Positions 1,991 to 34,254 of a stretch of 37,478 nucleotides of DNA are shown here, piece after piece. Below the pieces are notes generated by a model. That model was not told the origin of the DNA. It worked only from the letters and a program-made list of their open reading frames with translations, and ran no database searches. Origin of the DNA: Bacillota bacterium (GTDB lineage: Bacteria > Bacillota > Limnochordia > Darwinibacteriales > DTU012); assembly GCA_012520795.1 (NCBI GenBank), contig JAAYNP010000061.1, positions 1 through 37,478 of the forward strand. The letters run 5' to 3'. Each line of letters begins with the position of its first letter. Within the stretch, counting starts at the first letter, position 1. Both the position numbers and the translations under genes were made by a program.

Positions 1991-2037
1991 GGTAAAACCT
2001 CCGTTTCACCCCTCTAAGTAAAAATGTAGGCCGACAT

Positions 2038-3561
2038 CTACTTATTGCGCTTAAAATACTGCTCCACCAAGAATTCCATTAGTTCACCCGGTTCCTCCTT
2101 GACATACTCCGGCTGGTCTCTGAATACCATCGCATATGGTTCCTCAGGAGTATAGCAAGCCCAGTGAGGCATCTCTGCTCCGGTGCTGTCTTTACCATTG
2201 GGATCGCCACTTTTTATGAAATTTGCCCAATAGTTGCACATCTGGCGTGCCAGATCATAGTGTTTGCCAACAAAAGGCCGCCAGCACTTGGCCAGAGTCT
2301 CAAAGAAGAACCACAAATCCACTGAATGGAATGTTCCTGGATTATCCCAGCCTGGGATTTCTGCGTCAAAATTGTAATAATACAGGGGAGTGTTCGCACA
2401 GGTATCGGCATTGGCCTTGCCTGCAAGGCGGATGGCATACTCAATACCATTAACCGAAGCCCGGTTCCTGATTTCGTCGATGGTGCCGGAGTCAAAACGA
2501 ACCAGCTTCAGGAATTGCTCAGCATCCTCGCCAAACATTTCAGCAGCCATCTGCTGGAGTTCTTCTTTGGATTCTACCATAGGCCTGGCCATAAATTCCG
2601 ACGATGTGTGGCCCAGCATTACCGGAACGTTGAGCCTTTTGTTCTGCAAGAAAAGATCAAAACTATTGCCAGTACAAAATTGATGATCGATTACAGTACC
2701 CCAGAATCCTCTGTATTCCAGGGCTTTGGCCATGATGTATTCCGCATCCAGCTGGCGAGCTTCTGCCAATGAGGAAACACCTAAGAATTCGAAAAACTTG
2801 ACTCCCTCTTGCTCAGCAGCAGCTAAAGCCCGCCCCCGTCTGGGGCCGCGGACATGGGGATATACAGGTGCGAACATACCACTCTGAATGATTGCTTTTT
2901 GGCACAATCCTTCATTCCGGGGGGAGGTCAACTGGCTTAACACACTCCCTCCGCCAGCTGACTGGCCGCCAATAGTAATATTGGCCGGATCACCGCCAAA
3001 AGCAGCAATATTACGCTGCACCCAGCGTGTGGCAAATTGTTGGTCAAGATTACCAAAATTGGCTGGGGCATGGGGTGCTTCCTTAGTGATTTCCGGATGG
3101 CACAGAAAACCGAAAACATTAAGACGGTAGTTGATTGTCACCACAACTATACCTCTGCGGGCTATCCGTTCTCCATCAAACTCCATTTCCGATGGATAGC
3201 CAACCTGGAGGCCCCCTCCAAAATACCACACAAAGACCGGCAGTCGTTCATCAGGGCTTTTGGCCGGTGTCCAGACGTTAAGGTACAAACAGTCTTCGCT
3301 CATAGGTTGATCTGGATCCACATGCCATTCTCTGCTGTAAATGTTATCTTTGTCCACACCCGGCCTGGCCTGCATGGCTATTGGAGCCCACTGAAAGGCT
3401 TCCAGCACTCCATCCCAGTCTTTTGCCGGTTGAGGTGCCCGCCAGCGATTCTCACCAACAGGGGGCGCAGCAAATGGGATCCCTTTGAAGCTAGTGATCC
3501 GCGGATCCGCTGCTGGTAAACCTCGTACTACACCATTCTCGATCTTAACCTCTCTTAGCAC
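2038..3561 (-). CDS. Type-B carboxylesterase (PF00135 family), cytoplasmic
   Basis: This 507-residue alpha/beta-hydrolase belongs to the carboxylesterase type-B family. The nucleophile elbow is GGQSAGGGS (Ser201), the acid is Glu322 in HTSSEFMARP, and the His is His412 in GTFHSVDLW. EDCLYLNVWTP and NYRLNVFGFL are family signatures. The oxyanion-hole motif reads YFGGGL instead of the usual HGGGF. I chose the GTG at 3561 because AAAGGAG lies just upstream and because it leaves 37 bases after the previous stop. An ATG at 3612 would overlap the upstream gene and has no ribosome site. No signal peptide is visible, so it probably acts inside the cell. A role in removing acetyl or other acyl groups from imported xylo-oligosaccharides is inferred from the neighbours; the family is broad. 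Confidence 0.9.
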   Translation of the reverse strand: MLREVKIENGVVRGLPAADPRITSFKGIPFAAPPVGENRWRAPQPAKDWDGVLEAFQWAPIAMQARPGVDKDNIYSREWHVDPDQPMSEDCLYLNVWTPAKSPDERLPVFVWYFGGGLQVGYPSEMEFDGERIARRGIVVVTINYRLNVFGFLCHPEITKEAPHAPANFGNLDQQFATRWVQRNIAAFGGDPANITIGGQSAGGGSVLSQLTSPRNEGLCQKAIIQSGMFAPVYPHVRGPRRGRALAAAEQEGVKFFEFLGVSSLAEARQLDAEYIMAKALEYRGFWGTVIDHQFCTGNSFDLFLQNKRLNVPVMLGHTSSEFMARPMVESKEELQQMAAEMFGEDAEQFLKLVRFDSGTIDEIRNRASVNGIEYAIRLAGKANADTCANTPLYYYNFDAEIPGWDNPGTFHSVDLWFFFETLAKCWRPFVGKHYDLARQMCNYWANFIKSGDPNGKDSTGAEMPHWACYTPEEPYAMVFRDQPEYVKEEPGELMEFLVEQYFKRNK

Positions 3562-3598
3562 TGAGCCTTCTCCTTTCCATTGGCTTTGGGCAGCGGCT

Positions 3599-6717
<3,119 letters not shown>

Positions 6718-6740: not shown

Positions 6741-7661
6741 TTAACCAACAATTCCAGTCCTTTCAATGCTCTCAATAAAGTATCTCTGCAGGAAGACATA
6801 GAGGATCAACAACGGCAGGATGAACAAAAACATGCCTGTATTATTCACAATGGTCTTAAACTCATCACTTATACTCCAATGGTATTTACCAATCAAATTA
6901 CGCAGGCTAAACGGGAGCAAATTTAAGCCGCCCCTCATAAAGATGGAGGTATAGAAGATGTCATTCCACTGCCATACAAAGGAGAACAAGAAGATTACCA
7001 GCAGAATCGAGCCGGCACCAGGCAGCATGATCCGCCAAAAGGTCCTAAACTGCCCTGCACCATCGATATAGGCTGACTCCTCCAGAGCTTTTGGCATCCC
7101 CCGGAAATGCTGCCGGGCAATAAAGATAAACAGACCGTTTTTGGCGCCAGTTCCAGTCAAAGCAGTTAACAAGAAGGGCCAGTATGTCCCAATAAGATCA
7201 AAGCCTCCCCCTTTTAACAAGCCAAATAAATCAAAGTAACGGAAATTAAGAAACAGGGGAATGGTAATCATTTGCGGTGGGACTACTAGAGTGAAAACGA
7301 CCAAAGCAAAGATCAAACCTCTACCTCTGAACTCGAAGCGCCCCAGCCCATAACCGATTATCGTGCAAGAGAGCAGCTGGGAGAGACTGATCACCAGAGA
7401 AAACACCAATGAATTTAGAGCAGCCCGGAAATAATCCATATTACGGATGATTTCCATGTAATGCTTGGCAATGCGAGTTAGACTTAGATTGCGGGGCACC
7501 CATTGTACGGTAGGATCAAAGATATCCTTTTCCGTCATGATCGTAGTGGAAAGCTTAATAAACACAGGATTGATAATGAGAAAACAAAGGCCGATTAGCA
7601 AGACACCTCGCACAATACTCCACGAATAACTGGCAATCCTCCTCTTAAGCATCACGCTCAT
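6741..7661 (-). CDS. Carbohydrate ABC transporter permease, MalG-type (CUT1)
   Basis: This is an inner-membrane permease of about 306 residues with six predicted membrane segments. The EAA loop that contacts the ATPase lies at residues 195-214 (EESAYIDGAGQFRTFWRIML). It is the second permease of a CUT1 oligosaccharide importer and ends in the usual QRYFIESI..GIVG region of MalG-like proteins. I chose the ATG at 7661, behind GAAAGG. A longer frame from 7712 would overlap the previous gene and lacks a ribosome site. Only 31 bases separate it from the upstream permease, so the two are co-translated. No ATPase gene is in the window; many Bacillota use one shared MsmX-type ATPase for several sugar importers. 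The substrate is inferred to be (arabino)xylo-oligosaccharides. Confidence 0.93.
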   Translation of the reverse strand: MSVMLKRRIASYSWSIVRGVLLIGLCFLIINPVFIKLSTTIMTEKDIFDPTVQWVPRNLSLTRIAKHYMEIIRNMDYFRAALNSLVFSLVISLSQLLSCTIIGYGLGRFEFRGRGLIFALVVFTLVVPPQMITIPLFLNFRYFDLFGLLKGGGFDLIGTYWPFLLTALTGTGAKNGLFIFIARQHFRGMPKALEESAYIDGAGQFRTFWRIMLPGAGSILLVIFLFSFVWQWNDIFYTSIFMRGGLNLLPFSLRNLIGKYHWSISDEFKTIVNNTGMFLFILPLLILYVFLQRYFIESIERTGIVG

Positions 7662-7692
7662 GTTCATCAACCTTTCATTCGTTTTTGCGCTA

Positions 7693-8586
7693 CTATTCCA
7701 TATAAAATACATTCCGTTCGATCACAAAACCCACGACTAGTAAAATCAAGCCTATAGCAACAAAGTACATTAAGCTCATGGCCACACTCACTCCGAAAAT
7801 CCCCCTGCCCCATGTTAAATCTGAGATGTATTGAACCAGATTATTACCGGGAGCAGTGAAGGAATATACCGTAATGAAAATCACATTGGTCAAAAACAAA
7901 GGTGAGATTAAAGGGAAGGTAATTTTCCAGAATGTCTCCCATCCAGTGGCGCCTTCAATCTTGGCGCACTCATACAGATGGACTGGAACGGACTGCAAAC
8001 CAGCCAGGAAAATCAGGATTGGAATAGCAGAATACTCAATGAGCTGCGGAAGGTTGCTGGCGGCTGCGATTACGTACCCGATAATCCCTTTGGGCAGGCT
8101 CATGTCCAGGAAAAAGTCCCGCATTGTGGCAGTCGACAGCATAATGTTTCCCCGGTCCCTTGTGGTCAGGTACATCAAATCCTCAACTTCCAGTTGGTGC
8201 AGGACACCGGCAGTTAGAATCACCGGCAGGAAAAATATAGCTCGAACCAGAGTCCGGCCTTTGAATTCCTGATTCAAGATACTGGCTATAAAGAAACTGA
8301 ACATGATCACTGAAGGAATATTCACCAATATCCCCAAAACAGTTTCGGTAAAGTATTGGTTGAAATTTGGATCGACCGTCACCGCATACTTGAAATTCTG
8401 CAGGCCAACATACTTTAACTCATAACCTTCCGTAGTGAAGATCAGCTCGCTTACACTAAAGCGAAAGGACTGCAGCATTGGTGCCAGGAAAAAGAATATG
8501 AAACCAATGATAAACGGTGCCACCCATAGATATCCAGCCAAGCTTCGCTTTTGCCTCAACGTCAGCTTAAACAAAGGCCTCTTCAT
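7693..8586 (-). CDS. Carbohydrate ABC transporter permease, UgpA/LplB-type (CUT1)
   Basis: This 297-residue membrane protein opens with the typical first helix LAGYLWVAPFIIGFIFFFLA and carries the EAA loop at about residues 206-225 (ECAKIEGATGWETFWKITFP). It forms the permease pair with the next gene. The ATG at 8586 overlaps the last base of the upstream TAA stop (TAATG) and has GGAGGAGG upstream, so its translation is coupled to the DUF5696 gene. A loop of roughly 45 residues (about 130-175) between membrane segments is longer than in MalF-type proteins of similar length. The tight coupling to DUF5696 suggests that the DUF5696 protein works with this transporter. Confidence 0.93.
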   Translation of the reverse strand: MKRPLFKLTLRQKRSLAGYLWVAPFIIGFIFFFLAPMLQSFRFSVSELIFTTEGYELKYVGLQNFKYAVTVDPNFNQYFTETVLGILVNIPSVIMFSFFIASILNQEFKGRTLVRAIFFLPVILTAGVLHQLEVEDLMYLTTRDRGNIMLSTATMRDFFLDMSLPKGIIGYVIAAASNLPQLIEYSAIPILIFLAGLQSVPVHLYECAKIEGATGWETFWKITFPLISPLFLTNVIFITVYSFTAPGNNLVQYISDLTWGRGIFGVSVAMSLMYFVAIGLILLVVGFVIERNVFYME

Positions 8587-11399
8587 TATCGGTCCTCCTC
8601 CAGCAAGCAATATCCCTGTGCAGCTATGGTCACGCCTTCTAATTCAACAGGGTAGTGATTGTAATTCACTATGATAGAGATGCCGTTATCAAAGGTACTC
8701 TTGGCCACTCCATCCTGAATAAGCTGGTGTTCCACTAATCTGTGGCCATAGATCTTTTGATAGATCGGATAATATTCCTCGTAGTATTCGAGTACTGTGT
8801 CCCGCCACTGTTCGTAATTGAATGACAGGAACTGATCATATTTCGTTCCTTTAATCACTTGCGACTCCGCTGCAGCCAGCACAAAATAGGGTAAAGCTCC
8901 CGCTTCCAGACTCTTAAGCATATAGGAACCGCGATCTGCAACCTGATTGACCGGATCACCGGCATAGGTAAGATATCCACTCACAACCATCTGAAAGAAT
9001 GGAATTCTGGCATCAACAATATCAAGATCGCTATCCTCCAATGGCATATTTACTATGGTGGATGTGTAAGGCAAACAGTAGAGGTTCCCTTTTTCCACCA
9101 GAATCGAGTATTCCTGAGCAATGCCATTCATGAGATCGGCTGTGATTTCCGCCGCTTGCTGCCTGTCAACGAACAATCCTTTAGTTCTATTGAAATCAGA
9201 ATTCAACTGCGACCCTAATTGACCAAGGGAGATGCCTTTACTTCCGAAACGATTGAAATCCTCAACGAAGCTCTTAACTAAGCCAGGCAGCACTCTTGGT
9301 GAGACCAAATATGCCGATTCATCAGACCTGGCTGCAAATGTAGCCAAGTGATAGCTGTTGATCTGCGCTGGAAGGCGGTTGAGCCTGCGAGCCGCATCCC
9401 TAGTGGAACTAAAGCCGTCAAACAGCCGATTACGATATACATTTAGAAATCCCACATCAGGGTACACAACTCCGTTGTTCTCCTGAACATGATCAATCAA
9501 TTCCTCGAATTCAGTCTCGGTACCAAGGTTCCTTTCAATAACAGCTCTGCGGGGGTAGACATGTTCCAAGCCGCCCTTTAACCACCCTCGATAACGGATA
9601 TGGATGTTTTCAATCCCCATACCGCTTAGGTCATCAAAGATATCCTTGGCCTCAGCAAAAGTAGTTGCCGGATAGGCAACGGTGCGGGGAATCCCCCAAT
9701 GAACCTCAACCCGTGGAAAGGCACCGATCAGTTCCACCAGCAGAGGTGGTTGTTTTTGTGCAGCCGTTTTCAAAACTCCGGTTTTAATCAGGTATTCTTG
9801 ATATCGCCGGGCCATGCCGGAGTAATTGGCATCTTCGCCAACAAAAAACAGATAGCGGACTTGAACCTTACCCTTAAACATTTCAGGTTGATAAACATCC
9901 AGCTGGCCGCCGTGCTCTAAATTAATACTCCCAGACTTGATAATGTTGAAACGGGGGAAAATACGGTTAAAATCATCGCGCTTGCCTGAAACATCTGCTC
10001 TCAAGTGGGCGATGGAGTCCCCTCGTTCAATAATACCTAAGTAAGCCTGATCGCCTTTTTTCAACCCGAAAACTGGCAGATGGATCTGCTGCCCATACGT
10101 GGTTATATAGCTCAGGGGATCTTCTGAATTGTCGCGGCCGTAAACACCCTGGTTATAAGTGGGTGTCCAGGTTTTGCCATTGTTGAGGTAAATCAGGGCT
10201 CCAGAACCGTCCGGAATCAGAATATAACCCTCATCCTCCAGCCCAGCAGCTGAAAAGTATGGCAAAATCTCCACAAACAGAATTGGAAAAGTATGCTCTA
10301 CCCCGGCAAAGTCCACAACATCAATGGGATATTTGACATCATCAACGGGAACCGATACAAGCAGACTATCCTGATCCAGCTGATATTCTACAGCCACTTC
10401 AAAGATCTCAAGATTGGGAACGCTCGGATTGATGTTGTTCGCTATATGATCGTCTGTAGCATCCAACGGACTGTACCCTGTACTTTCCACAACTTCACTC
10501 AACCTGTTAACCACAGCCCGAGGAACACTCTTTCGTAAATAAGTATCATGATCTACCAGCTGTTCAACATCTGCAAAGGTTATATACTGGATCCCCGACA
10601 GATCCGCCCGGTTGTCGAGGATTGTATTGATCAAGTGCCAGGTAATATCTTCCGTATCCCAAAGCAAACTTTGACTCAATTTATCGATATTAGATTCGAG
10701 CTTCTTTTTTTGCGCCAGTAATGCCTCGTCCTCAGATCCGGATTGACTTATTCGTAGCTCCAATTCCTGCAGCTCACTCTTTAATGCTTCTACTTCTGCC
10801 TGTAATTCCAGAAAATCGTCTTCCAAAATCTCCAGAGTATATTCTCCAAAGATCTCTTCCGAAGGTAATCCCATAATATCGGGATGTTCTTCACCTTCGT
10901 CCAGTTTTCTCAATCTAATCAAATAATAGTATGATCGTATGGTGTCCCGATCCTTGTTACCTAGCTTATTTAGGATCAGTTCTTCTAACCTGTCTCTGGA
11001 AATCAACTGTGGTAAATAATCACCGGGTGTCCATTTTTCCACAAACTGATAGTCGATCCTCACACCATTATCAATGGGACTGATCTCAAATCTTTCAAAC
11101 GAATTGCTATAGGTGTAATTATCCTTGGTCACCCTGCCCGGGTCATGAACAAGGTTAATTTGTGAGCGCTGCATCGGTTGAGTGACACCAGGCCCCACGG
11201 GATTACTTAACCACACCCTGCCGGTTTCTTTGCACTGCACCGCTATAGAAGTATCCTCTTTATTGAAATACAAAACGAGATATTGGTTTTCCGCCACTAT
11301 TTCTTTGCCCTCGAGCCCGGTAGCGGCTATTGCTATTGATTCGCTGCAAATGCTAATGGCGACGATTAGTAATAACAGCAGCATTAGGTGCTTTTTCAC
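8586..11399 (-). CDS. DUF5696 domain protein, exported
   Basis: This is a 937-residue protein with a cleavable signal peptide (about residues 1-26, IAIAA-TG). After a beta-rich N-terminal region it has a charged coiled coil at about residues 190-245 (repeated E/L/K heptads). A large C-terminal half follows with TIM-barrel-like segments (for example HIRYRGWLKGG, YPDVGFLNVY) and a last beta-sandwich. I recognise the DUF5696 family, which is often found beside CUT1 permeases in Bacillota; no function has been shown to my knowledge. The fold resembles catalytic glycosidase barrels, so it may be an oligosaccharide-binding protein or an unassigned glycosidase, but I cannot name catalytic residues. 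The start is GTG behind GGGGGT. It overlaps the downstream permease start by one base. Confidence 0.78.
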   Translation of the reverse strand: MKKHLMLLLLLIVAISICSESIAIAATGLEGKEIVAENQYLVLYFNKEDTSIAVQCKETGRVWLSNPVGPGVTQPMQRSQINLVHDPGRVTKDNYTYSNSFERFEISPIDNGVRIDYQFVEKWTPGDYLPQLISRDRLEELILNKLGNKDRDTIRSYYYLIRLRKLDEGEEHPDIMGLPSEEIFGEYTLEILEDDFLELQAEVEALKSELQELELRISQSGSEDEALLAQKKKLESNIDKLSQSLLWDTEDITWHLINTILDNRADLSGIQYITFADVEQLVDHDTYLRKSVPRAVVNRLSEVVESTGYSPLDATDDHIANNINPSVPNLEIFEVAVEYQLDQDSLLVSVPVDDVKYPIDVVDFAGVEHTFPILFVEILPYFSAAGLEDEGYILIPDGSGALIYLNNGKTWTPTYNQGVYGRDNSEDPLSYITTYGQQIHLPVFGLKKGDQAYLGIIERGDSIAHLRADVSGKRDDFNRIFPRFNIIKSGSINLEHGGQLDVYQPEMFKGKVQVRYLFFVGEDANYSGMARRYQEYLIKTGVLKTAAQKQPPLLVELIGAFPRVEVHWGIPRTVAYPATTFAEAKDIFDDLSGMGIENIHIRYRGWLKGGLEHVYPRRAVIERNLGTETEFEELIDHVQENNGVVYPDVGFLNVYRNRLFDGFSSTRDAARRLNRLPAQINSYHLATFAARSDESAYLVSPRVLPGLVKSFVEDFNRFGSKGISLGQLGSQLNSDFNRTKGLFVDRQQAAEITADLMNGIAQEYSILVEKGNLYCLPYTSTIVNMPLEDSDLDIVDARIPFFQMVVSGYLTYAGDPVNQVADRGSYMLKSLEAGALPYFVLAAAESQVIKGTKYDQFLSFNYEQWRDTVLEYYEEYYPIYQKIYGHRLVEHQLIQDGVAKSTFDNGISIIVNYNHYPVELEGVTIAAQGYCLLEEDR

Positions 11400-11426
11400 T
11401 TCAAGACCCCCTTGTCAGCATGTGGC

Positions 11427-13550
11427 CTAAACCCTATAGACAATTTCATTGTATAAATCTAAAACGAACAAGACCAGACGATCGATGATCATGAAGAACA
11501 GCAGCCAGATAAAGGCTACCAATTGAATACCCACGATGATGATAATGATGGTCAAGATCGCTTTCGCAACAGTATAGTCATGAGTCATCACTGTACCTAT
11601 GAACAGCAGGCACAGAGACCAAATGATGGCAATACTTAGGAACAAATAATAGAAGTAACCTTCTTCGGCAGCCATAAAATTGCTGAGGATTGTAATCGGA
11701 ATCAAAATTATAACCAATGGTGTCAGAGCATAGGCCGAATAGATGAAAATATCTTTAAAATTTCCCTTGCCATCAGTCAGTGTAGTAAATCCCCAGTTTA
11801 CGACACACCACAGCATGAAGGTAGCAAGAACAGTCAGCAATTGGCGAACCAAATTGACAGAACTAAAGTCACGAGTGTTGAAAACAAAACCAGTATAGAA
11901 GGTATTAATCAGTAAACTGATGAGCACCAGAATCAAAATAATGATGGCACTTGTAACAGTACCGCGTTTTTCATGCTTCAAGTCCCAAAATCCGTCAAAC
12001 GGATGGAACAGGATGTAAATACCGTACCAAACCTCTCTGAGTCTCTCATTAATTGCTTTGACAGCCCTGTTGTCTATTTCCAGAGCAGCACTGATTTGCG
12101 CTTTTGCTTTGGCGAACAGCTGTAGCTTACCAAGAATCCAAATAATCAGCAGAAATATCAGTATGCCTGTAATAACTTTATTGAGATTTTTCCGCAGCAC
12201 TTCCTGGCGATGATACACAAAAGCCTTTGAATAATAATCGCGATCCTGTCCCAGCCGGAAATAAGTCATGGCATTTACGAAGTCCTCTTGCATTAAGTAG
12301 TTTCTGCCAATACCCACATAGGCCATTTCGTAGTTGGCATCCAGGCTTAGAACTTGGCGCCAGACTTCTGCTGACTCGTCATAATCACCATTCTCATAAT
12401 ACTCAATAGCAAGATGAATAGCTTGCGCATATTCTGTAGGGCGGAAGACAGTGATCGTGTTCTTACCTCTGTCACCGACGAAGATCTTATCACCAAAACT
12501 GTCAATCGCTGAAGGCCGATTGAACATACCCTGATGTCCTCCCGGGCCACCAAAAACGTAGAGCAGGTTACCATAACTGTCATAAGTAAATACGCGTCCC
12601 CGCTTACTGTCGAGGGCACTGTAGATGCCGTCAAAACGATAAGCTATATCAATCAGTGTTGACGGGCCGGAATACGGGTCCAAATTGAGGGGGAAATTGA
12701 TGTCACCAACCGGTGCGGTTTTTCCGGTACGCTGCAAGGTGTCTATACCAGCAGGGCTTAACCGCTTTATGGCTTCGGTTTCTTCCTCTGCCCCAGCAAC
12801 AGTTGTATATATGAATCCAGTCTCATCTATATCCAGTTTACTGAATTCGACCGGTATGAACAGCCTTCTCCTCGCTCTTTGCTCTTCCGTGGCGAGTTTA
12901 TACCAGAACACTTCCACCCATGAAGGTGTAACTTTCGGTGCACCGATAAAACCAAGAAACTTGCCATCGGTGGTGAATTCCATAATTCCGTCATAAATAC
13001 CGGCTGATATTACATAAAGTTTTTTCCCCACCCCCTGGCCCAGGCTGCGGGGACGGAAACGAAACCCTTCAACGAACACTCCAAGTTCCTGTATTTCTTT
13101 CGGATCGAACAATATGATCCGGATCAGAGTTTTGTTTTGGTCCAAGACGACTATCCGCTGATTGCCTGTATCAGCAATATAAATAATCCCCTCATCATTG
13201 ACAAACACGCTTTCAGGGGAACTGATTTTTTCCTGGCCGTTTTCGGAGACAAAGCTGTCAATGATATCCAACACTTCTCCGTCCTGATTTACAACAACAA
13301 TCCTGTTTCTGCCAGAGTCGGCCACCCATATAGTGCCGTCGCCACTAATGTACAAGTCGCGCAGATCACTAACATAAGTGTTAAGGTCAATGATCTTATC
13401 TACAACGTATGGTTCCGGCGCAGAGCTCGCCTTTCCCCAGAAATCGTAGTTGTAGCTGCGATAGGGACTGGCATTGCTGTTTTCGCTGCCACATATGGAC
13501 AAGAGCGCTATCACCAAAAGGAACAGCAGTTTAATTCGCTTGTTTTTCAA
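11427..13550 (-). CDS. NHL beta-propeller / TPR / Yip1-like membrane protein
   Basis: This 707-residue protein starts with a TTG behind GGGGTGG. A signal peptide (about residues 1-28) leads into NHL-type propeller repeats (about 55-370) with recurring motifs such as IWVADSGRNRIVVV, IYIADTGNQRIVVL and IFVGDRGKNTITVF. A TPR-like pair follows (about 371-440). Membrane segments lie near 459-477, 531-553, 568-588, 607-630, 634-656 and 661-693; the block from about 505 to 695 looks like a Yip1 domain. The topology puts the propeller outside the cytoplasm. It lies 27 bases before the DUF5696 gene. Proteins of this layout occur next to DUF5696 and sugar permeases; the role is unknown. A sensor or assembly factor for the transporter or for polysaccharide capture is possible. 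Confidence 0.8.
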   Translation of the reverse strand: MKNKRIKLLFLLVIALLSICGSENSNASPYRSYNYDFWGKASSAPEPYVVDKIIDLNTYVSDLRDLYISGDGTIWVADSGRNRIVVVNQDGEVLDIIDSFVSENGQEKISSPESVFVNDEGIIYIADTGNQRIVVLDQNKTLIRIILFDPKEIQELGVFVEGFRFRPRSLGQGVGKKLYVISAGIYDGIMEFTTDGKFLGFIGAPKVTPSWVEVFWYKLATEEQRARRRLFIPVEFSKLDIDETGFIYTTVAGAEEETEAIKRLSPAGIDTLQRTGKTAPVGDINFPLNLDPYSGPSTLIDIAYRFDGIYSALDSKRGRVFTYDSYGNLLYVFGGPGGHQGMFNRPSAIDSFGDKIFVGDRGKNTITVFRPTEYAQAIHLAIEYYENGDYDESAEVWRQVLSLDANYEMAYVGIGRNYLMQEDFVNAMTYFRLGQDRDYYSKAFVYHRQEVLRKNLNKVITGILIFLLIIWILGKLQLFAKAKAQISAALEIDNRAVKAINERLREVWYGIYILFHPFDGFWDLKHEKRGTVTSAIIILILVLISLLINTFYTGFVFNTRDFSSVNLVRQLLTVLATFMLWCVVNWGFTTLTDGKGNFKDIFIYSAYALTPLVIILIPITILSNFMAAEEGYFYYLFLSIAIIWSLCLLFIGTVMTHDYTVAKAILTIIIIIVGIQLVAFIWLLFFMIIDRLVLFVLDLYNEIVYRV

Positions 13551-13643
13551 GGCTAATCCACCCCATATTCCTTAAGGCCAGAACAACTAGTGCGTTCTAA
13601 GCCGAGCTCGATTCAGACCCTCGTGTTCTTATGACGTTATATA

Positions 13644-13695
13644 TGCTATGGAAAACCTCCTGACAGCCAAAGCTGCAGGTAAGTTTTCCATAGCA
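13644..13695 (-). repeat. Long inverted repeat (hairpin) after the LamG gene
   Basis: Perfect 13-base arms at 13644-13656 (TGCTATGGAAAAC) and 13683-13695 enclose a 26-base loop. The loop itself can fold through CCTG.CAGC and GCTGCAGG. In the RNA the hairpin begins about 40 bases after the LamG gene stop. No T-run follows, so it is not a classical terminator. It shares the TGGAAAA/TTTTCCA core with the hairpin at 15098-15160. Confidence 0.7.
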
Positions 13696-13734
13696 GAGTT
13701 CAATATGCTCTCAAATCCAAAACGTCAATGTGCG

Positions 13735-15039
13735 TTATTTGTTCATCAGTTCGACAATCTCGTCAGCAGACAAAGCTACGTTGCTAATGTACAGCTCGTC
13801 AATCAAGCCATTAAAGAGCGGGTCTGGCCATTGACTCTTACCAACATAGTTCATAGCCGGTTTGAAGTCTTTGGGAACGATATTGATATTACCAGAAGCT
13901 TTAAGCTCACCATTAACATAGAGCTTGCCTACCCCACCGCCCAAAGTAACGGCGATATGGACCCATTCGTTCTTTGGCAAAATGTCAGTTTGAATCGTTT
14001 GCTCGCCGCTGCCTGAAGTGATGGCAAAACGTAGAGTGTTGGCGTTCGAAGCTGGTGTGATAAAGAAGTACTGAGAGGTGTTGTTACCGAAGTCTAAGAT
14101 CCGTTGCCAATGCACTCCTTCTCTCCAGAGTACCCAACAGGCTACGGTCATTTCTTCGGCATTTGCGATCGGATGCTCGGCAGGAACTTGAACGAATATA
14201 TTACCATCCAAGTTCAAAGCTTGGCCAACTACACCAGGCTCAAAAGTAACTTCACTTTCGCTGAACGCCGGGAATACACCCAGGGAGTCATCAAGGTTGC
14301 CTTCGAAGGAATACAGTGAAGGCCTTGCGATAAAGATTTTGCTGCCTGTAAACTTAGCCATGGCATCATCCAAAGCAACCAGAGCGGCGATCTGCCCTTC
14401 TTCGCCAGGAGCAAAATACTTGTCTGCAAGCTTAGCATTGGCAATGGCCAGTACTAGTGCCTCAATGGCCCTGTCAGGAAAATCAAAGAGTTTGTCATCA
14501 AGCTCGGCCTCTGTAGGTAGTTGACGCAGCAGCTCATATGCCTCTGCAACCTTCTTGCCAATTGTCGGCAGGTATTGGAATGCATCAACAGTGATCGCAG
14601 CAAATGTAGCGATTTCGCTCTTTGTGCCAGTTGGTTGGACCTTGATTGTGTGAACGCCTGCATCCAGGACTGCTTCAAACACAACAACCTGGTCTGCCCC
14701 TTCCTCAGCATAAAGATCGAGATTCGCAGCTACAAGTTCATCATCGATATAAACATTGGCCATTCCCCGGTTCGGCCCAACCGAGGCGATCCAGCGGATA
14801 GCTGATCCCTCAAAAGTGAAAGCCGCTTCATGGATGTCCCGATCGGAGTAAATCTCAACACCGTTGATAGCTTCCTTGTTATTGATTCTGCGCCAGTTTG
14901 TCAAACCTGAGCCATAATAGCTGACTTCGCTGGACGTTACATCTACAGTTACCCATCCAGCACTCCCTGACGCTAAACCAGTGCCTAGAAGCAAGCTTAA
15001 TATGATTAAGCTTAGAATCAGGATGGCTTTTCTAGTCAT
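13735..15039 (-). CDS. Secreted LamG (concanavalin-like) protein with FIVAR-like helical spacer
   Basis: This 434-residue protein has a signal peptide (about residues 1-26) and three parts. Residues 28-157 form a beta-sandwich of galactose-binding-like type, with FEGSAIRWIASVGPN, VYIDDE and GVHTIKV. Residues 160-233 are helical and look like a FIVAR spacer. Residues 238-434 form a LamG/concanavalin A-like domain, with SFEGNLDDSLG, WVHIAVTLGGGVGKLYVNGEL and GLIDELYIS. No catalytic motif is visible. Sitting between the solute-binding protein and the NHL/Yip1 protein, and flanked by two hairpins, it is likely a glycan-binding partner of the importer. The ATG is preceded by AAGGAGAG. Function is inferred from domains only. 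Confidence 0.83.
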   Translation of the reverse strand: MTRKAILILSLIILSLLLGTGLASGSAGWVTVDVTSSEVSYYGSGLTNWRRINNKEAINGVEIYSDRDIHEAAFTFEGSAIRWIASVGPNRGMANVYIDDELVAANLDLYAEEGADQVVVFEAVLDAGVHTIKVQPTGTKSEIATFAAITVDAFQYLPTIGKKVAEAYELLRQLPTEAELDDKLFDFPDRAIEALVLAIANAKLADKYFAPGEEGQIAALVALDDAMAKFTGSKIFIARPSLYSFEGNLDDSLGVFPAFSESEVTFEPGVVGQALNLDGNIFVQVPAEHPIANAEEMTVACWVLWREGVHWQRILDFGNNTSQYFFITPASNANTLRFAITSGSGEQTIQTDILPKNEWVHIAVTLGGGVGKLYVNGELKASGNINIVPKDFKPAMNYVGKSQWPDPLFNGLIDELYISNVALSADEIVELMNK

Positions 15040-15097
15040 TTTTCATCTCTCCTTCTGACTTGACGTATAAGGTGCCCTAAACATACAGTAGCTCTCG

Positions 15098-15160
15098 AGT
15101 TAGGCATGGAAAAACCCAAATGCTTTCCACACCTATCAGAAGTATTTTCCATGCCTAACT
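15098..15160 (-). repeat. Long inverted repeat (hairpin) after the solute-binding protein gene
   Basis: Perfect 16-base arms at 15098-15113 (AGTTAGGCATGGAAAA) and 15145-15160 enclose a 31-base loop. With a one-base bulge the stem extends three more pairs. In the RNA it starts about 17 bases after the solute-binding protein stop. No T-run follows. A 3'-stabilising or RNA-processing hairpin that raises the binding-protein level over downstream genes is a known arrangement in sugar ABC operons. Confidence 0.72.
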
Positions 15161-15177
15161 ACGACTCAATCACCGGT

Positions 15178-16578
15178 TTAGTATCTGAACAACTCATCAA
15201 AGAAGGCTTGGATCATTGGTGCGATTTCAGCAATGCCGGTTTCAGGAGGTTTCACACCGTTAACAACTATGTCTTCGATTGTCTGGGTGTATCCATCAAC
15301 AGCAAAGTACAGCTCAAATGGCCCCATTGCAGTTACATTTTCATTGAACCACATAATTGTATCGATAGTTTCCAGATCAGGTGCGTTAACTCCGATAACT
15401 TCACTCCAGTACATATCCTCAACTCTGCCAGCGGACCTGGCATTCATTGCCCTGCCATTGTAAACTGGGCCTTGTACAAATGGTTCTTGGTAACCTGTAA
15501 ATTCATAAAGATCGTGATACAGAGCAATCAAGCCTTTTGGATTCTTGGCTGTCAACGGCAGCACGCCAAAGCAAGTCAGCCGGTTCACAGCTACATGGTC
15601 TTCTGCCCTTGGCCCTTTTGGCAACGGCACATAACCGAAGTCAAAGTTGACTTGGTTGATGAAATGGTTTTCGTGTGTGCCATAGAGCTCACTCGGGATA
15701 TTGATGTTCATAGCGACCTGGCCATTTTGCCACGGGCCCCAAATACCATAATCCAAATAGACACCAAGGTCTACCAGTTCTCTGGCAAATTCTAATGCTT
15801 CGATTGCCGCAGGTTCATTCATGGTGAACAGCAGCCTTCCGCCTTCATACCGGACAGGCTGGCCGCCATTCATATAGACGAAGTACTCGATTGTTCCAGG
15901 ATCGGTCATGACTCCACGGGAAGTGTAGCCCCATTGATCAATAACCCCGTCACCGTCGGTATCGGCTGTAGCCTTGATTGCGATTTCCTTAAAGGCATCC
16001 CATGTCCACTGCCCGCTTTCATACAACTCATAAAGATCTGGCAAGCCTTCACGGGCAAAGAGTTCTTTGTTCCAATAAACTGCTTGAGTTTCCTGGAAGA
16101 ACTTGTCAGGGCCGCCCATCCAACCGCATTCAAAACCATAGACATCGCCGAAGAAAGCATTGTGCTGCGGCATTACCGCGCCAACGCCCCCTGGCAGTGC
16201 ATCGTAATAGCCTTGATCCAGGATGTCACCTACAGGCAGCAGCAAACCTTCGGCAGCTGCATAGTAAATCCATTGATTTTGCCCTTCAAAGAGAGTATAT
16301 GGTGCGCCTTCCATAACAGCAGTTGCCACGTTTTGGACAAATGCATTATGGTCTCCGCCTGGCCATCCAAAGGCAATGGTACAATTATACTTTTCTTCGA
16401 TAGCTGCTAAGTGAGCTGCTCCTCTGCCTTCGTTAAATGCTGAACCAGACCAGAACTCCACGATGGTGACAGTTTCTCCGCCGAAGTCATACTCATCTTC
16501 CAACCAGTGAGCTAGACCGACTGAAGTAACGGCCAGCACAAGAGTCAGTACAAGAATGAAACTCAAAACTCTTTTCAC
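15178..16578 (-). CDS. Extracellular sugar solute-binding protein of CUT1 ABC transporter
   Basis: This 466-residue binding protein has a hydrophobic signal segment (residues 1-23, ending SVGLA-HW) and a family-1 solute-binding fold. The lobe starts with ETVTIVEFWSGSAF, followed by AVYWNKELFAREGLPDL and a DTDGDGVIDQWG calcium-loop-like motif common in such proteins. It should capture xylan oligosaccharides for the permeases encoded further downstream. The GTG at 16578 is used because GGGAGGAG lies six bases upstream; an in-frame start at 16611 has no ribosome site. Unlike most binding proteins of single-membrane Bacillota it has no lipobox cysteine. It is separated from the permeases by three genes of the same uptake module. 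The substrate is inferred from context. Confidence 0.92.
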   Translation of the reverse strand: MKRVLSFILVLTLVLAVTSVGLAHWLEDEYDFGGETVTIVEFWSGSAFNEGRGAAHLAAIEEKYNCTIAFGWPGGDHNAFVQNVATAVMEGAPYTLFEGQNQWIYYAAAEGLLLPVGDILDQGYYDALPGGVGAVMPQHNAFFGDVYGFECGWMGGPDKFFQETQAVYWNKELFAREGLPDLYELYESGQWTWDAFKEIAIKATADTDGDGVIDQWGYTSRGVMTDPGTIEYFVYMNGGQPVRYEGGRLLFTMNEPAAIEALEFARELVDLGVYLDYGIWGPWQNGQVAMNINIPSELYGTHENHFINQVNFDFGYVPLPKGPRAEDHVAVNRLTCFGVLPLTAKNPKGLIALYHDLYEFTGYQEPFVQGPVYNGRAMNARSAGRVEDMYWSEVIGVNAPDLETIDTIMWFNENVTAMGPFELYFAVDGYTQTIEDIVVNGVKPPETGIAEIAPMIQAFFDELFRY

Positions 16579-16620
16579 GATGGTCTCCTCCCTTTGGTTT
16601 AATTTGGACACAATTAAACG

Positions 16621-16723: not shown

Positions 16724-18493
16724 CTACTCAGCTGGCAGGCCATAAAGCTCAAGCTCGTAGACAACCAGGTTTTGGTTAACTTCCAAAGATGTAGGCCGTG
16801 TCACAAATAACCTGACATATCGTGCCTTGATTAAATCAAGGTCCCTTTCCGTTGTACTGGCGGTGTTGTCTTCAACAACATCCACATCAGTCCAGTTGAT
16901 GCCATCTTCACTGACCTGTAATATGAAGTCGGCAGCATTAAAGGGGCTATGTGAAATCCTCGACAACGGGCCCGTTCCGTGTAACTTGCATACCCACCGA
17001 TACAACAGGTAAGGTTCCTGCAAGTCCACGCTGAGCCAATACGGAGGTGTTGCCCTAGGTGCCCAGCTGGTGTCAGCCGCTCCATCCACAGCCCTGTGGG
17101 CCCTTTCTGAAAGAACACTTGCTTCGACGGGTTTATTAAGGGCAATGTTCTGCGCAGAAATCGTGCGGATTGCGATCGCTTTGGCCTTATCAGGCCAATT
17201 TGCTCCATCAAACAGATCCGTACGGACGAAATGCCATGCATCTCCTGTCCGATCCTCTGATTCATAGAGGGACATCATATAACCTGTGCCTACTTCTATC
17301 CTGGCTACATCTGCCAGGGAGAAGCTCAAATCGGCTGCCTTGTACTCTCCCGGCTTCAATGTTCCGAAAATCTGTCCCGCGGCGTTCTTGAAGATCACAG
17401 CACCGGTATATTCTGCCTTGTTGACATACCAGGGCTTATCTGTGTCAACAACAGCCCAGAATGCTGGTTTCGGTTCATGATTCCGGTCAAAGAGCAGCGG
17501 GTCATCATCACCCCGCCATGAGGCATCGTCGGCAATGCCCCATAGGGTAACATTGGTGATCACATCGCTGTATTTTTTGAACAACTCGAAGACTTGCCGA
17601 TAACGTTCGGCCTGTTCTTCCTCTGTAAAGTCACCCATACCTATATCCATCTCAGTGATATGTATCTCTAATCCCAGTTCGGCATACATCTTGATCGACT
17701 GTTCAATATCAGCAAGGCTAGGCCCATCGACACCCCAGTGCCCTTGAATACCGATACCGTGAACGGGCACTCCTTCAGCTAGCAAATCTGTCAACAGTTT
17801 ATGTATGCGGCCTCGTTTATACGGGGCTACGGCATTATAGTCGTTATAGAACAACTTCGCATTTGGATTGACTTCATGCGCCTTGCGGAAGGCGATTTTA
17901 ATAAAATCCTCTCCGATGGTCCTAACCCAGGGAGACTCGGGGCGATGGATATAAGCAGCATTATCACTGACTGCTTCGTTGACCACATCCCAGCAATAGA
18001 CATCATCGCCGAAATGGGTCATTACCGCCTCTATGTGAGCTTCCATCCGGGAAATCACCAACTGGCGATCTTCATCAGTGATCTGATCTTTTTCGTAGAT
18101 CAACTGCCCATTCTTGTCGCGGAAAAACCAATCAGGAGTCTGTCCATGCCAGACCAACGTATGACCCCGCACTACCATGCCATGTTCTTTGGCAAAGGAA
18201 ACCAAATTGTCGGGTTCTCTGAAATTGAAAACTCCTTCCCGGGGCTGCAGATAATCTGGTTTCATGGCATTTTCTGCAGTCAGACTGCTTAACTGGCCCA
18301 GAATAATCTCTCTATGAGATATGAGAGTCTTCGGTGCCCAACTGGCTACTGATATGGCGCCGCCGATGTGGAAGTAATCCTTATAAATCTCCCGCAGCGA
18401 AGGAAGTACATAATTTTCAGCCAAAACACTGGATGAACTAAATACCAGGACGATTACCAAGAAGCAAACAGCTGCCAGATTTCTCTTCGTCAC
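16724..18493 (-). CDS. GH10 endo-beta-1,4-xylanase with crystallin-like and discoidin domains
   Basis: This secreted 589-residue xylanase has a signal peptide at residues 1-25. The GH10 (beta/alpha)8 barrel spans about 30-352, with the acid/base Glu173 in WDVVNEAV and the nucleophile Glu281 in HITEMDI. HTLVWHGQTPDWF and ENAMKPDYLQP are also characteristic. After the barrel, residues 362-445 look like a beta/gamma-crystallin Greek-key unit (LKPGEYKAADLSF, GYMMSLYESEDRTGD). Residues 448-587 form an F5/8 type C (CBM32-like) domain (NIALNKPVEASV, FILQVSEDGINW). It cleaves the xylan backbone outside the cell. The start is GTG with GGGGGGAG upstream. A LacI-type operator lies 88 bases upstream, so it probably heads its own transcript. 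Confidence 0.96.
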   Translation of the reverse strand: MTKRNLAAVCFLVIVLVFSSSSVLAENYVLPSLREIYKDYFHIGGAISVASWAPKTLISHREIILGQLSSLTAENAMKPDYLQPREGVFNFREPDNLVSFAKEHGMVVRGHTLVWHGQTPDWFFRDKNGQLIYEKDQITDEDRQLVISRMEAHIEAVMTHFGDDVYCWDVVNEAVSDNAAYIHRPESPWVRTIGEDFIKIAFRKAHEVNPNAKLFYNDYNAVAPYKRGRIHKLLTDLLAEGVPVHGIGIQGHWGVDGPSLADIEQSIKMYAELGLEIHITEMDIGMGDFTEEEQAERYRQVFELFKKYSDVITNVTLWGIADDASWRGDDDPLLFDRNHEPKPAFWAVVDTDKPWYVNKAEYTGAVIFKNAAGQIFGTLKPGEYKAADLSFSLADVARIEVGTGYMMSLYESEDRTGDAWHFVRTDLFDGANWPDKAKAIAIRTISAQNIALNKPVEASVLSERAHRAVDGAADTSWAPRATPPYWLSVDLQEPYLLYRWVCKLHGTGPLSRISHSPFNAADFILQVSEDGINWTDVDVVEDNTASTTERDLDLIKARYVRLFVTRPTSLEVNQNLVVYELELYGLPAE

Positions 18494-18893: not shown

Positions 18894-19436
18894 TTAAAGC
18901 TTAATCGGTTTGTTGCCAACAATCTTGAAATCATCCATGTAGTAGGAAGCTTCTACATCGTCGATCTCAGGATAGAACTCGATGCGGTCCAGACCATCAA
19001 GGCTGAAGACAAAGTCCTTGATAACGACTTCTACCCAGTCGGTTGTGTTGACTTCGACGGGGTCACACAGCCGCTCATAGGAAGCATTGCCGGCTTTGTC
19101 TACCCGTACAGCTGTTATCCAGGCTGTTGAACCAGGTTTGGCCTCCATGGCTTTAATCCAGAGGCTGAAGGTATAGACTCCGCCTTCCTCCAGAATGTTG
19201 CTGACCTGGAAGATTGTGCCTTCCCAAATCTGGGTCCTGCCAAGGACTGCCAGGCTGAAGGGTTCACTGCGGAATTCTTCAGCAGCAATGTAGCGTACAG
19301 CTCCGCCCATAGGGCCCCATCCGGATTCGTGGCCATTGGAGAAATCAATAATTGCTTCATATTCAGCGTCAGCAGCCACAGCGGCAGCACTCAGGCACAG
19401 TACTAAACCAAAAACCAAAAACAGGCTTTTTCTCAT
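18894..19436 (-). CDS. Stand-alone secreted CBM4/9-like carbohydrate-binding protein
   Basis: This 180-residue protein consists of a signal peptide (residues 1-22, ending AVAA) and one beta-sandwich module of the CBM4/9/22 type (EAIIDFSNGHESGW, YTFSLWIKA, YMDDFKIV). No catalytic domain follows. The ATG at 19436 has GGGAGG seven bases upstream; an earlier in-frame start at 19544 would add a non-signal extension with no ribosome site. The gene sits between the GH5 and GH10 genes. Its likely job is binding xylan or xylan oligosaccharides outside the cell, as a substrate-disrupting or capture protein. The exact CBM family cannot be fixed by eye. Confidence 0.82.
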   Translation of the reverse strand: MRKSLFLVFGLVLCLSAAAVAADAEYEAIIDFSNGHESGWGPMGGAVRYIAAEEFRSEPFSLAVLGRTQIWEGTIFQVSNILEEGGVYTFSLWIKAMEAKPGSTAWITAVRVDKAGNASYERLCDPVEVNTTDWVEVVIKDFVFSLDGLDRIEFYPEIDDVEASYYMDDFKIVGNKPIKL

Positions 19437-19553
19437 GAGGAAACCTCCCATCGCATTGATTGTTATCCAACAAAAGGTGGGTGAGTGGCTTGCACCTTCA
19501 CACCTTATGATCAACCCCAGATATGGAATTGCTTGACAATTCACCCAAGCATA

Positions 19554-21221
19554 TCACTGGGATCCTGAGATAAACTCCATCCAATCGATCCCTGTGGTAT
19601 ACGGGCCGTTGCCGCCCTGGAATTCCAAAACTAATTCCTGCCTCCCCGGCTGGAGATCGATGGCTGTTGAGGCCAGGCACCAGTCAGCCCCGTCCTGAGC
19701 AGTATTATCTGTTGTGTGATCAAGTTTCACCACTGCCAGTACGTTCCCATCCTGGTTCTTTATGATTACTTCAGGATTACCTTGAGCACTGGCTTTGAAT
19801 CGGAACCTCATCATGTAACTCCCTGGCTCAGCAACATCCACCAGGTAGCTGACCCAATCACCAGGTTGGAAACTGCTCAAATGCCGCCCTGCCGGGTCAT
19901 CGGCATTGGAACTCACCTTGATCCCGAAGGCCATCAGCTCAAAACCTTCAGCTTCAATCCTGCCGGGGACAGGTTGGTAACCAAATGATCTGACGCTCAG
20001 CTCAGCCAGTTCCGGCATCCAATCAAAATAGGCCTGAGCACCTTCCCGATCCGCCAGTTCGCAGTCATAAGGCCTGCTGGAGTTGAGATCATCAAGCAGA
20101 TCGCCGATAAACCCAACCAGGTAAGAAACATTTCCTTGACTGTCCATGGCTTGCTTGATAGCCTTGCCGAAGTATTCGGTCCGGCCGTTTACCAAATTGC
20201 GGGGGTCATCAGGGAAAGGGGTCCAGAACATTTCCGTGATGATCATCGGCCAACGGTCTGCAGCCGGTTTGTACTGCCGGTTCCACAGATTCTGCACTCC
20301 CTTGACACTATCAAAGACACCGCCATAGGCAGGATAAAAATGGACCGCCACCCCGATGTTATCACCGGCGAAGGGATACATAGCCCACTGCTGAGGCGAA
20401 CCCTGCCATTCCAGTGTAGGTACCCAGATCACATTATTAGCCCCCGTACTGCGGATAACGTCAATAATCGGCTGCAGCCACTTGGTGAATGCCTCAAAAT
20501 AGACCTTGTTCTGCATACCCCATTGGTTGTTGCCCAGGGCTGATTCCACCAGGACAGGCTCATTCATCAGCTCAAACATAATATTGTCGGCGTTCTTTAC
20601 ACCTGGCGCGCCGGCAACCCGTTCCCAGAAGGTTAAAAGCCTTTCCTGCGTACCTTTGCCGGCATTCTTGGACATATCACCATCCACATTGACGATCATC
20701 GGTCCTGTGGCGCACAAGACTAGATAGATGCCCCTGCTTCTAAGGATATTGGCATAGGGGACCAGGAAATTATCGATCCAAGCATCAAACTGCGCGGGAT
20801 CCACTAAGCCTTCGGCACTGGACCAGCCGCCTACACCATCAAGGTTGAGGCGGACAAAGCTGCAGTGCCAGCCGTGATCCCTCCCGTAGCGCGGGCTGGG
20901 GTCACTCATCAGGGTGGCCACCTCTTCCAGGTAATCAAGGAAGTTCTGTACACCCGATCGTGTTAGAAGAGAACGCAGCCGCGTCCAGTCCCAGGGGTCG
21001 ATATACCACCGCCCGTTACCATTGAAGTAACTGGCTGTGGGCTGCATCCAGCCATGGAGTAAGACGGTGTTGCCTGCTGGATCCTTAAGCTGATTCCCAT
21101 CGACTCTCAGCGGCGGTGTAGGCCTAACGCCAACCCGCCCGCCCTCTGCAAAAACTGCTGCATTGGCAACAACTAACATTAGCGCAACTACTCCGATGGC
21201 AAACAAGACTTTTTTTGACAT
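19554..21221 (-). CDS. Secreted GH5 glycoside hydrolase with C-terminal CBM6-like module
   Basis: This 555-residue protein has a signal peptide (residues 1-25), a GH5 barrel at about 35-415 and a CBM6/35-type module at about 422-553 (IEAEGFELMAFGIKV, GDWVSYLVDV, GIDWMEF). Glu221 in MFELMNEP is the likely acid/base and Glu330 in IITEMFW the nucleophile. The early motif LHGWMQPTASYFNGNG and HFYPAYGG agree with GH5. The subfamily is not clear; GH5 includes endo-xylanases that need arabinose decorations (GH5_34), and that activity would fit here, but mannanase or glucanase activity is not excluded. ATG start with GGAGG six bases upstream; 49 bases follow the GH43 gene. Confidence 0.9.
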   Translation of the reverse strand: MSKKVLFAIGVVALMLVVANAAVFAEGGRVGVRPTPPLRVDGNQLKDPAGNTVLLHGWMQPTASYFNGNGRWYIDPWDWTRLRSLLTRSGVQNFLDYLEEVATLMSDPSPRYGRDHGWHCSFVRLNLDGVGGWSSAEGLVDPAQFDAWIDNFLVPYANILRSRGIYLVLCATGPMIVNVDGDMSKNAGKGTQERLLTFWERVAGAPGVKNADNIMFELMNEPVLVESALGNNQWGMQNKVYFEAFTKWLQPIIDVIRSTGANNVIWVPTLEWQGSPQQWAMYPFAGDNIGVAVHFYPAYGGVFDSVKGVQNLWNRQYKPAADRWPMIITEMFWTPFPDDPRNLVNGRTEYFGKAIKQAMDSQGNVSYLVGFIGDLLDDLNSSRPYDCELADREGAQAYFDWMPELAELSVRSFGYQPVPGRIEAEGFELMAFGIKVSSNADDPAGRHLSSFQPGDWVSYLVDVAEPGSYMMRFRFKASAQGNPEVIIKNQDGNVLAVVKLDHTTDNTAQDGADWCLASTAIDLQPGRQELVLEFQGGNGPYTTGIDWMEFISGSQ

Positions 21222-21270
21222 TGCAATCCTCCAAACTAACAGACATCAACGCAACAAAATACAACAGTAC

Positions 21271-22848: not shown

Positions 22849-22889
22849 AAGATCCCTCCTGTGATGATCTAGTTGCATTCCCAAACGTG

Positions 22890-22944
22890 GGATATCTAGC
22901 AGAGCCGGTTTAAGTGGTATGAACCAGCCTGAACCGGCATATCC
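22890..22944 (-). repeat. Nested inverted repeat between two GH43 genes
   Basis: Arms GCCGGTT (22904-22910) and AACCGGC (22932-22938) enclose an inner TGGT/ACCA pair, and outer GGATAT/ATATCC stretches can extend the stem. It lies within the 101-base gap just after the stop at 22950. No T-run follows. It may be an mRNA 3'-end hairpin. Confidence 0.45.
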
Positions 22945-22949
22945 AACAG

Positions 22950-25268: not shown

Positions 25269-25291
25269 TGGCTTTTCTCCTAACCGATATT

Positions 25292-25320
25292 TCTATAGCC
25301 TTTTTAAGCCTGTTGTTCGA
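25292..25320 (-). promoter_or_regulatory. Candidate promoter for the GH43-CBM6-Big-Big-CBM6 gene
   Basis: A -10-like TATAGA (25297-25292) follows a weak -35-like TCGAAC (25320-25315) with a 17-base spacer. The -35 overlaps the operator at 25319-25330, as expected for repression. The -35 match is poor, so this is tentative. Confidence 0.35.
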
Positions 25321-25330
25321 AACCGGTTTA
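25319..25330. promoter_or_regulatory. LacI-type operator upstream of a GH43 gene
   Basis: GAAACCGGTTTA differs from the other two operators at the last base only. It lies in the 89-base gap between the lipoprotein and GH43 genes, 51 bases before the GH43 start, and overlaps a candidate -35 region. Confidence 0.7.
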
Positions 25331-25357
25331 TCCAAGATTGATCAGTAGCCTACCGTC

Positions 25358-26437: not shown

Positions 26438-26559
26438 GCTCTTTCCTCCTTTGTTCAAAACAGCTTTTCAACTCTAAGCTACTGACAACATTGGAGTCTG
26501 CTGCATTTGATACCATCACTGTCTCTGATAGCGATCAAGTCGTGGTTCGGCCAGTCCGG

Positions 26560-26571
26560 GAAACCGGTTTC
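26560..26571. promoter_or_regulatory. LacI-type operator upstream of the lipoprotein gene
   Basis: GAAACCGGTTTC is a perfect palindrome identical to the site at 18581-18592. It begins 14 bases downstream of the -10-like CATAAT of the nearer candidate promoter, a position where a bound repressor would block transcription. Confidence 0.74.
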
Positions 26572-26585
26572 GTTACAACAGGCAA

Positions 26586-26616
26586 ATTATGTAATTTTCT
26601 CTGGTACTAACTTCAA
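26586..26616 (-). promoter_or_regulatory. Candidate promoter P1 for the lipoprotein gene
   Basis: TTGAAG (26616-26611) and CATAAT (26591-26586) are separated by 19 bases; TACATA two bases earlier gives a 17-base spacer. The operator lies just downstream, which supports the assignment. Confidence 0.5.
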
Positions 26617-26651
26617 CGCACACCTTTAAAATCCTGCTCGATAATTTATAT

Positions 26652-26681
26652 ATTTTATCTATCCCTAATATAGTTAATCAA
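26652..26681 (-). promoter_or_regulatory. Candidate promoter P2 for the lipoprotein gene
   Basis: TTGATT (26681-26676) and TAAAAT (26657-26652) are separated by 18 bases in an A/T-rich stretch. It lies upstream of P1 and has no operator of its own. Confidence 0.4.
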
Positions 26682-26743
26682 CATGCAACAATTGTATGCC
26701 CATCTCACCTCAAGCATGTACTGCTTTCAAACCCCTCCTCCAT

Positions 26744-28249: not shown

Positions 28250-28265
28250 TGAGAATCACTCCTCC

Positions 28266-29612: not shown

Positions 29613-29678
29613 GTTTGCCACTCCTTTTGCCGCAAATGCAGCCCTTATTGGGCAGGATGCCGGCTTCTGTAATAACTC

Positions 29679-34214: not shown

Positions 34215-34254
34215 CCAATTTCCCCCTCCCCCATACAGTAATCAATCTTGGCAG

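Follow-up and report, generated by a model that had tools for sequence, protein, structure and literature searches.

Do an NHL-TPR-Yip1 membrane protein and a DUF5696 protein belong to the sugar importer whose permease genes they adjoin? The question is raised by a 37,478-nucleotide stretch of DNA (contig JAAYNP010000061.1 of the Bacillota bacterium assembly GCA_012520795.1), which was analyzed at its full length and is called the window here. An earlier note on the window described a six-gene uptake module, in which the genes for these two proteins and for a LamG protein lie between the gene for a solute-binding protein (SBP) and those for two permeases (P1 and P2) of an ATP-binding cassette (ABC) importer. 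All six open reading frames (ORFs) are on the minus strand, in the layout and at the positions described. The recurring unit, however, consists of four genes, NHL-TPR-Yip1, DUF5696, P1, and P2, whose constancy is far beyond chance, whereas the position of the SBP gene varies and the LamG gene is not repeated at the other module copies in the same genome. The evidence that this four-gene core is inherited together across distant Bacillota is direct. The six ORFs are as follows.

15178 to 16611, minus strand: SBP (SBP_bac_1; Pfam E = 8.5e-11), a variable partner of the core
13735 to 15039, minus strand: secreted LamG (concanavalin A-like) protein (PF13385, Laminin_G_3; E = 5.9e-30), a local addition
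11427 to 13550, minus strand: NHL-TPR-Yip1 protein of 707 amino acids (Pfam Yip1, E = 4e-16; NHL; TPR)
8586 to 11399, minus strand: DUF5696 protein of 937 amino acids with a signal peptide (PF18952; E = 2.3e-186)
7693 to 8586, minus strand: permease P1, CUT1 type, EAA loop YECAKIEGAT (BPD_transp_1, 24.7 bits), in the module P1 clade
6741 to 7712, minus strand: permease P2, CUT1 type, EAA loop EESAYIDGAG (BPD_transp_1, E = 2.4e-14), in an exclusive P2 clade (Shimodaira-Hasegawa-like approximate likelihood ratio test [SH-aLRT] support, 99)

The SBP gene starts with GTG at 16611, and 16578 is an alternative start. As the earlier note had pointed out, the DUF5696 stop and the P1 start overlap in TAATG (GATAATGAAGAGG), with one base common to the stop and the ATG. 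Read alone, P1 of the window falls just under the BPD_transp_1 family cut-off (24.7 versus 26.4 bits); read with its in-frame neighbors, it lies above it. The EAA loops are kept in the module permeases.

The genome containing the window is a 2.37-Mb draft, in which we read the window copy and nine further regions. It holds ten DUF5696 and ten Yip1 matches. The NHL-TPR-Yip1 gene stands directly before every DUF5696 gene that has upstream sequence, P1 and P2 stand directly after every one that has downstream sequence, and the leftover DUF5696 and Yip1 matches sit at contig edges. Module P1 and P2 genes account for 18 of the 44 BPD_transp_1 matches in this genome, and the P1 scores are among the lowest of them, marking P1 as a divergent permease. 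The SBP gene is found upstream, downstream, or not at all, and the other neighbors also vary from copy to copy, with glycoside hydrolase (GH) families GH42, GHL6, GH127, GH3, GH28, GH8, and GH31 and a pectate lyase among them.

The same arrangement recurs in a sample of 199 genomes from the phylum. DUF5696 scored above the cut-off in 15 of them, and NHL-Yip1 profile matches spanning both propeller and Yip1 were found in the same 15. At the DUF5696 loci over the cut-off that were read, Yip1 comes before and P1-P2 after, the exceptions being two loci cut by contig ends. (Of six weaker DUF5696 matches in other genomes of the phylum, the three that were checked were all other barrels, namely, two alpha-amylases and a DUF6259 protein.) We also ran the test in reverse, with loci chosen by NHL-Yip1 alone; the best 80 of 549 detected were used, and as best matches to profiles from the window's own genome they lean towards its relatives. 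All 80 are titled as Bacillota of some kind. DUF5696 is next to NHL-Yip1 in 78 of the 78 loci that do not end there, followed by P1 in 66/68 and P2 in 63/63 resolvable loci. The earlier note had proposed asking whether the two genes occur mostly apart from sugar permeases; they are nearly always together with them.

Most relatives carry, in addition, a feature absent from the earlier note: a second permease pair (pA and pB) and a large SBP beside the core. Among the 73 loci that extend far enough upstream, 57 have the pA/pB genes directly ahead of NHL-Yip1, and the large SBP precedes these in all 48 that could be resolved. This protein has about 1,000 amino acids, with some 550 residues of other sequence ahead of its SBP domain. 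A separate SBP adjoins P1-P2 in about half of the resolved loci and is absent there in many relatives. The full order can be read on Butyrivibrio fibrisolvens plasmid pNP243: GH43, large SBP, pA, pB, NHL, YIP1, DUF5696, P1, P2, SBP, SBP. On a plasmid of Paenibacillus cellulosilyticus, the cassette follows a gene for a UgpC ATPase. That plasmid cassette and the C66 copy of the window's own genome form a deep subfamily (L170:5423-29695 and L015), in which P1, P2, pA, and pB each branch together.

In a tree of 76 permease sequences, P2, pA, and pB each form one exclusive branch (SH-aLRT, 99 to 100), and the branching order repeats among the clades. The P1 clade is broken by a single sequence, the "perm1" ORF of locus L076, which groups with a Paenibacillus P1 and is likely itself a P1. 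We further compared pairwise protein distances over 32 complete loci. The distances of NHL-Yip1, DUF5696, P1, and P2 correlate with each other at r values of 0.92 to 0.95, above the 0.79 to 0.87 obtained between these core proteins and the large SBP, pA, and pB; the stronger correlation within the core held in 500/500 half-samples and when the set was cut to 22 less redundant loci. Such co-divergence falls short of proof of contact. The P1 start lies within 30 bases of the DUF5696 stop in 64/64 loci and overlaps it in 28, with the start nearest the stop having been picked, which favors small distances.

What, then, could the two additional proteins be? The AlphaFold2 (AF2) model of DUF5696 (mean predicted local distance difference test [pLDDT] score, 81.7) comprises a beta-sandwich, a TIM barrel, and a C-terminal beta domain, with a long N-terminal helical hairpin insert. 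In a Foldseek search, it matched DagB (5opq; E = 7e-31) and NagBb (5wzr; E = 2.5e-28), followed by GH101 and GH36 structures. The sequence profile alone found 5opq (E = 3.7e-8) and 5wzn (E = 4.4e-5), and a comparison of hidden Markov models with DagB, for which the DagB sequence was taken from the PDB alignment, gave 99.6% probability over a global alignment. The predicted fold is thus GH129-like, and the barrel that the earlier note had supposed is, in these models, of the glycoside hydrolase type. With PF11308 (GH129) itself, hmmscan reported no match to the window DUF5696 at an E value of ≤0.1; a PF11308 search of the phylum gave 0/199 genomes, with no control matching either, and no GH129 enzymes were found on plasmids. 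DagB activity needs D486 (equivalent to NagBb D435), E517, E531, and D202 (PMC5698469). In a distant alignment, the D486-equivalent position holds Asp in 36/104 DUF5696 sequences, with Gln in the window protein, and Asn is found at the E517-equivalent position in 93/102, so that neither catalytic carboxylate is conserved there. Because these GH129-like positions are not conserved, DUF5696 is most likely a largely noncatalytic, glycan-binding protein, and the trimming of polysaccharide that the earlier note had envisaged is not supported. A lipobox-like motif occurs near the N terminus in 15/73 homologs, about one-fifth. Our literature search, in which subscription papers were out of reach, found no paper mentioning DUF5696.

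The AF2 model of NHL-TPR-Yip1 (mean pLDDT, 78.6) shows an N-terminal helix, a propeller, TPR helices, a long helix, and a helical Yip1 domain. The propeller matches NHL domains in Foldseek (E = 1.6e-14). The protein has an N-terminal signal, its long helix is able to cross the membrane near residues 455 to 475, a cytoplasmic stretch follows this transmembrane helix, and the Yip1 domain is multi-span. The natural topology would therefore place the propeller and TPR outside and embed Yip1 in the membrane. Several lineages encode the NHL(-TPR) part and the Yip1 part in separate genes (L169:9768-11863; genomes G103, G137, G066, G085, G142, and G022), a natural fission or fusion that links both parts functionally. 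No paper combining a Yip1 domain with an NHL repeat was found within the reach of the same search, and among papers with both "YIP1 family protein" and "ABC transporter," none concerned the NHL-Yip1/DUF5696/P1/P2 arrangement as far as their openly accessible text goes.

Gene content and order, co-occurrence, co-divergence, the predicted fold of DUF5696, and its nonconserved catalytic positions are the observations to be explained, and an importer with two additional subunits is their most economical explanation. We hypothesize, with somewhat better than even confidence, that the core is a CUT1 ABC importer extended by two dedicated subunits, of which DUF5696 is mostly noncatalytic and glycan binding. 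In this importer, the four proteins would form one membrane assembly. DUF5696, derived from the GH129/GH101 glycoside hydrolase fold, exported, and in some species possibly lipid anchored, would present oligosaccharide chains to P1-P2, beside or in place of a classical SBP. NHL-TPR-Yip1 would hold DUF5696 at the membrane, exposing its propeller and TPR on the outside and placing its Yip1 helices beside the permeases. The energy for P1-P2 would come from a shared ATPase of the MalK/MsmX type with its gene elsewhere; the module locus of the window has no ATPase gene, and the genome has one MalK-type ATPase gene (OB_MalK) outside the locus, whose product may drive P1-P2. There is precedent in Bacillus subtilis, where, according to the accessible text of two reports (PMC5730181, PMC7658222), pectin and arabinan oligosaccharide importers use a shared MsmX/MalK-type ATPase. 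In many plant-fiber-degrading Bacillota, NHL-Yip1 and DUF5696 invariably accompany one kind of sugar importer in the genome and are therefore probably undescribed working parts of it. A bolder version, which we advance tentatively, is that the module represents an undescribed class of ABC importer, in which DUF5696, a retired glycoside hydrolase, is a permease-docked glycan receptor and the propeller-TPR-Yip1 protein an obligatory membrane subunit, present some ten-fold in a 2.4-Mb genome as a polysaccharide uptake platform.

Several points weigh against the importer with two added subunits. Joint inheritance of neighboring genes can also give co-divergence, yet pA and pB, which are neighbors too, correlate less. 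About half of the resolved loci have a separate SBP beside P1-P2; therefore, DUF5696 need not be the receptor. The active-site mapping is a distant alignment of low local confidence, and D735, conserved at 86%, could act as a catalytic acid. The module copies adjoin carbohydrate-active enzymes (CAZymes) for several different glycans, whereas the Paenibacillus cellulosilyticus plasmid cassette adjoins LLM-class flavin oxidoreductases, so that the substrate of its subfamily may be other than a plant glycan. Finally, the complex, the binding, and the transport are read from genes and sequences.

The conservation of D735, together with that of E832 (95%) and the fold and profile match to DagB and NagBb, leads to a rather unlikely alternative: DUF5696 would represent a new family within the GH129/GH101 superfamily and, as an active glycoside hydrolase or transglycosylase, trim oligosaccharides at the mouth of the importer. 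The catalytic acids of DagB itself partly differ from those of NagBb (PMC5698469), leaving room for such an enzyme; the Gln of the window and the prevalent Asn at the positions of D486 and E517 speak against it, and the occurrence of one family beside many different CAZyme sets points to a generic role more than to specificity for a single linkage. Unlikely, too, is that NHL-Yip1 and DUF5696 are envelope assembly or quality control factors, or act as sensors in regulation of the locus, instead of being importer subunits. TPR and propeller domains frequently have roles in assembly and signaling, and the Butyrivibrio copy has a two-component system next to it; however, one dedicated paralog per importer, with its closest co-divergence with P1 and P2, exceeds what a general factor would need, and Pfam recognizes no signaling output domain in NHL-Yip1. 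The frequent placement of pA/pB immediately before NHL-Yip1, with the large SBP in every resolvable case, could also mean that P1-P2 and pA-pB make up one double importer bridged by DUF5696 and NHL-Yip1, which would be reduced in the window copy to a lesser form. We consider this improbable, as large SBP-pA-pB is directly upstream in only three copies of the window's own genome, with most copies, including that of the window, showing none, and as the distances of pA/pB follow those of the core less closely.

The importer with two additional subunits thus remains our preferred reading, and the surroundings of the window copy bear on its possible substrate. They form a xylan-type cluster with GH10, GH5, several GH43, GH39, GH115, a GH95 fragment, CBM6 and CBM4_9 domains, and two esterases, and the window copy would import xylan oligosaccharides. 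Its immediate neighbors are the following.

16724 to 18493, minus strand: GH10 xylanase with an F5/8 type C domain (PF00331; E = 2.4e-99), directly upstream
4795 to 6717, minus strand: right-handed beta-helix protein (PF13229; E = 2.7e-15), directly downstream of P2

Upstream, positions 18894 to 37476 encode a glucuronoarabinoxylan set entirely on the minus strand: GH5 with CBM6, four GH43 proteins, GH39, GH115, and CBM4_9 proteins. Downstream, positions 2 to 4774 encode the GH95 fragment with an F5/8 type C domain, a carboxylesterase (COesterase), and a further esterase resembling the feruloyl esterase part of a xylanase fusion. The beta-helix protein has no evident signal peptide. Its family is the commonest among genes flanking modules (5/66), and the nearest relatives (L028 to L030) encode proteins of similar size (636 to 654 amino acids) after the module, of which at least that of L028 is a beta-helix. 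The LamG protein, which the earlier note had counted as a component and labeled FIVAR-like, was rejected as a part of the module: its one close homolog is in L030, a near relative (72% identity), and a distant one is in L050 (26%); no Pfam match supports the FIVAR label.

The host was also taken to be Gram positive. Its genome has genes for a POTRA-containing Omp85 and for a ShlB-type protein, and the host is therefore very likely diderm, as far as gene content tells. The ShlB-type protein (L138:1405-3000) is a two-partner-secretion outer membrane protein in a Bacillota genome. A search of the host for LptD gave no match, and no TonB-dependent receptor (PF00593) was found in the genome, while controls matched. 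As Paenibacillus, with a single membrane, has the same cassette, the module is independent of an outer membrane.

If our reading is true, two parts have gone unrecognized in a whole lineage of the type I sugar importers of fiber-degrading Bacillota, including rumen and gut Clostridia, biogas organisms, and Paenibacillus. A function could then be annotated for DUF5696 and for the YIP1 and NHL genes next to it, predictions of glycan uptake by these bacteria would become easier, and the turn from hydrolase fold to transport receptor would clearly exemplify exaptation.

How does the module compare with known systems? As in the Gram-positive polysaccharide utilization loci (gpPULs), a term used in Firmicutes papers (e.g., PMC10318527), CAZymes are combined with a CUT1 importer. 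The module is like CUT1-type ABC importers in its two BPD_transp_1 permeases with EAA loops, an SBP nearby, and an ATPase elsewhere. It is unlike the known ones in its constant linkage and co-divergence with NHL-TPR-Yip1 and DUF5696, which to our knowledge do not figure in the usual descriptions of gpPULs, and in often having a second permease pair and an SBP of about 1,000 amino acids. DUF5696 shares its predicted three-domain fold with the GH129-like DagB (5opq) and NagBb (5wzn) and, remotely, with GH101, but differs from DagB and NagBb in its nonconserved D486/D435 and E517 positions and its extra N-terminal helical insert. The Gram-positive counterpart of the starch utilization system (Sus) that the earlier note proposed holds as a loose likeness: as with SusC/SusD of Bacteroidota, the module is a repeated paralogous transporter, each copy of which stands beside a different CAZyme set. 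Unlike SusC/SusD, it uses ABC permeases rather than a TonB-dependent channel, and it occurs also in single-membrane Paenibacillus.

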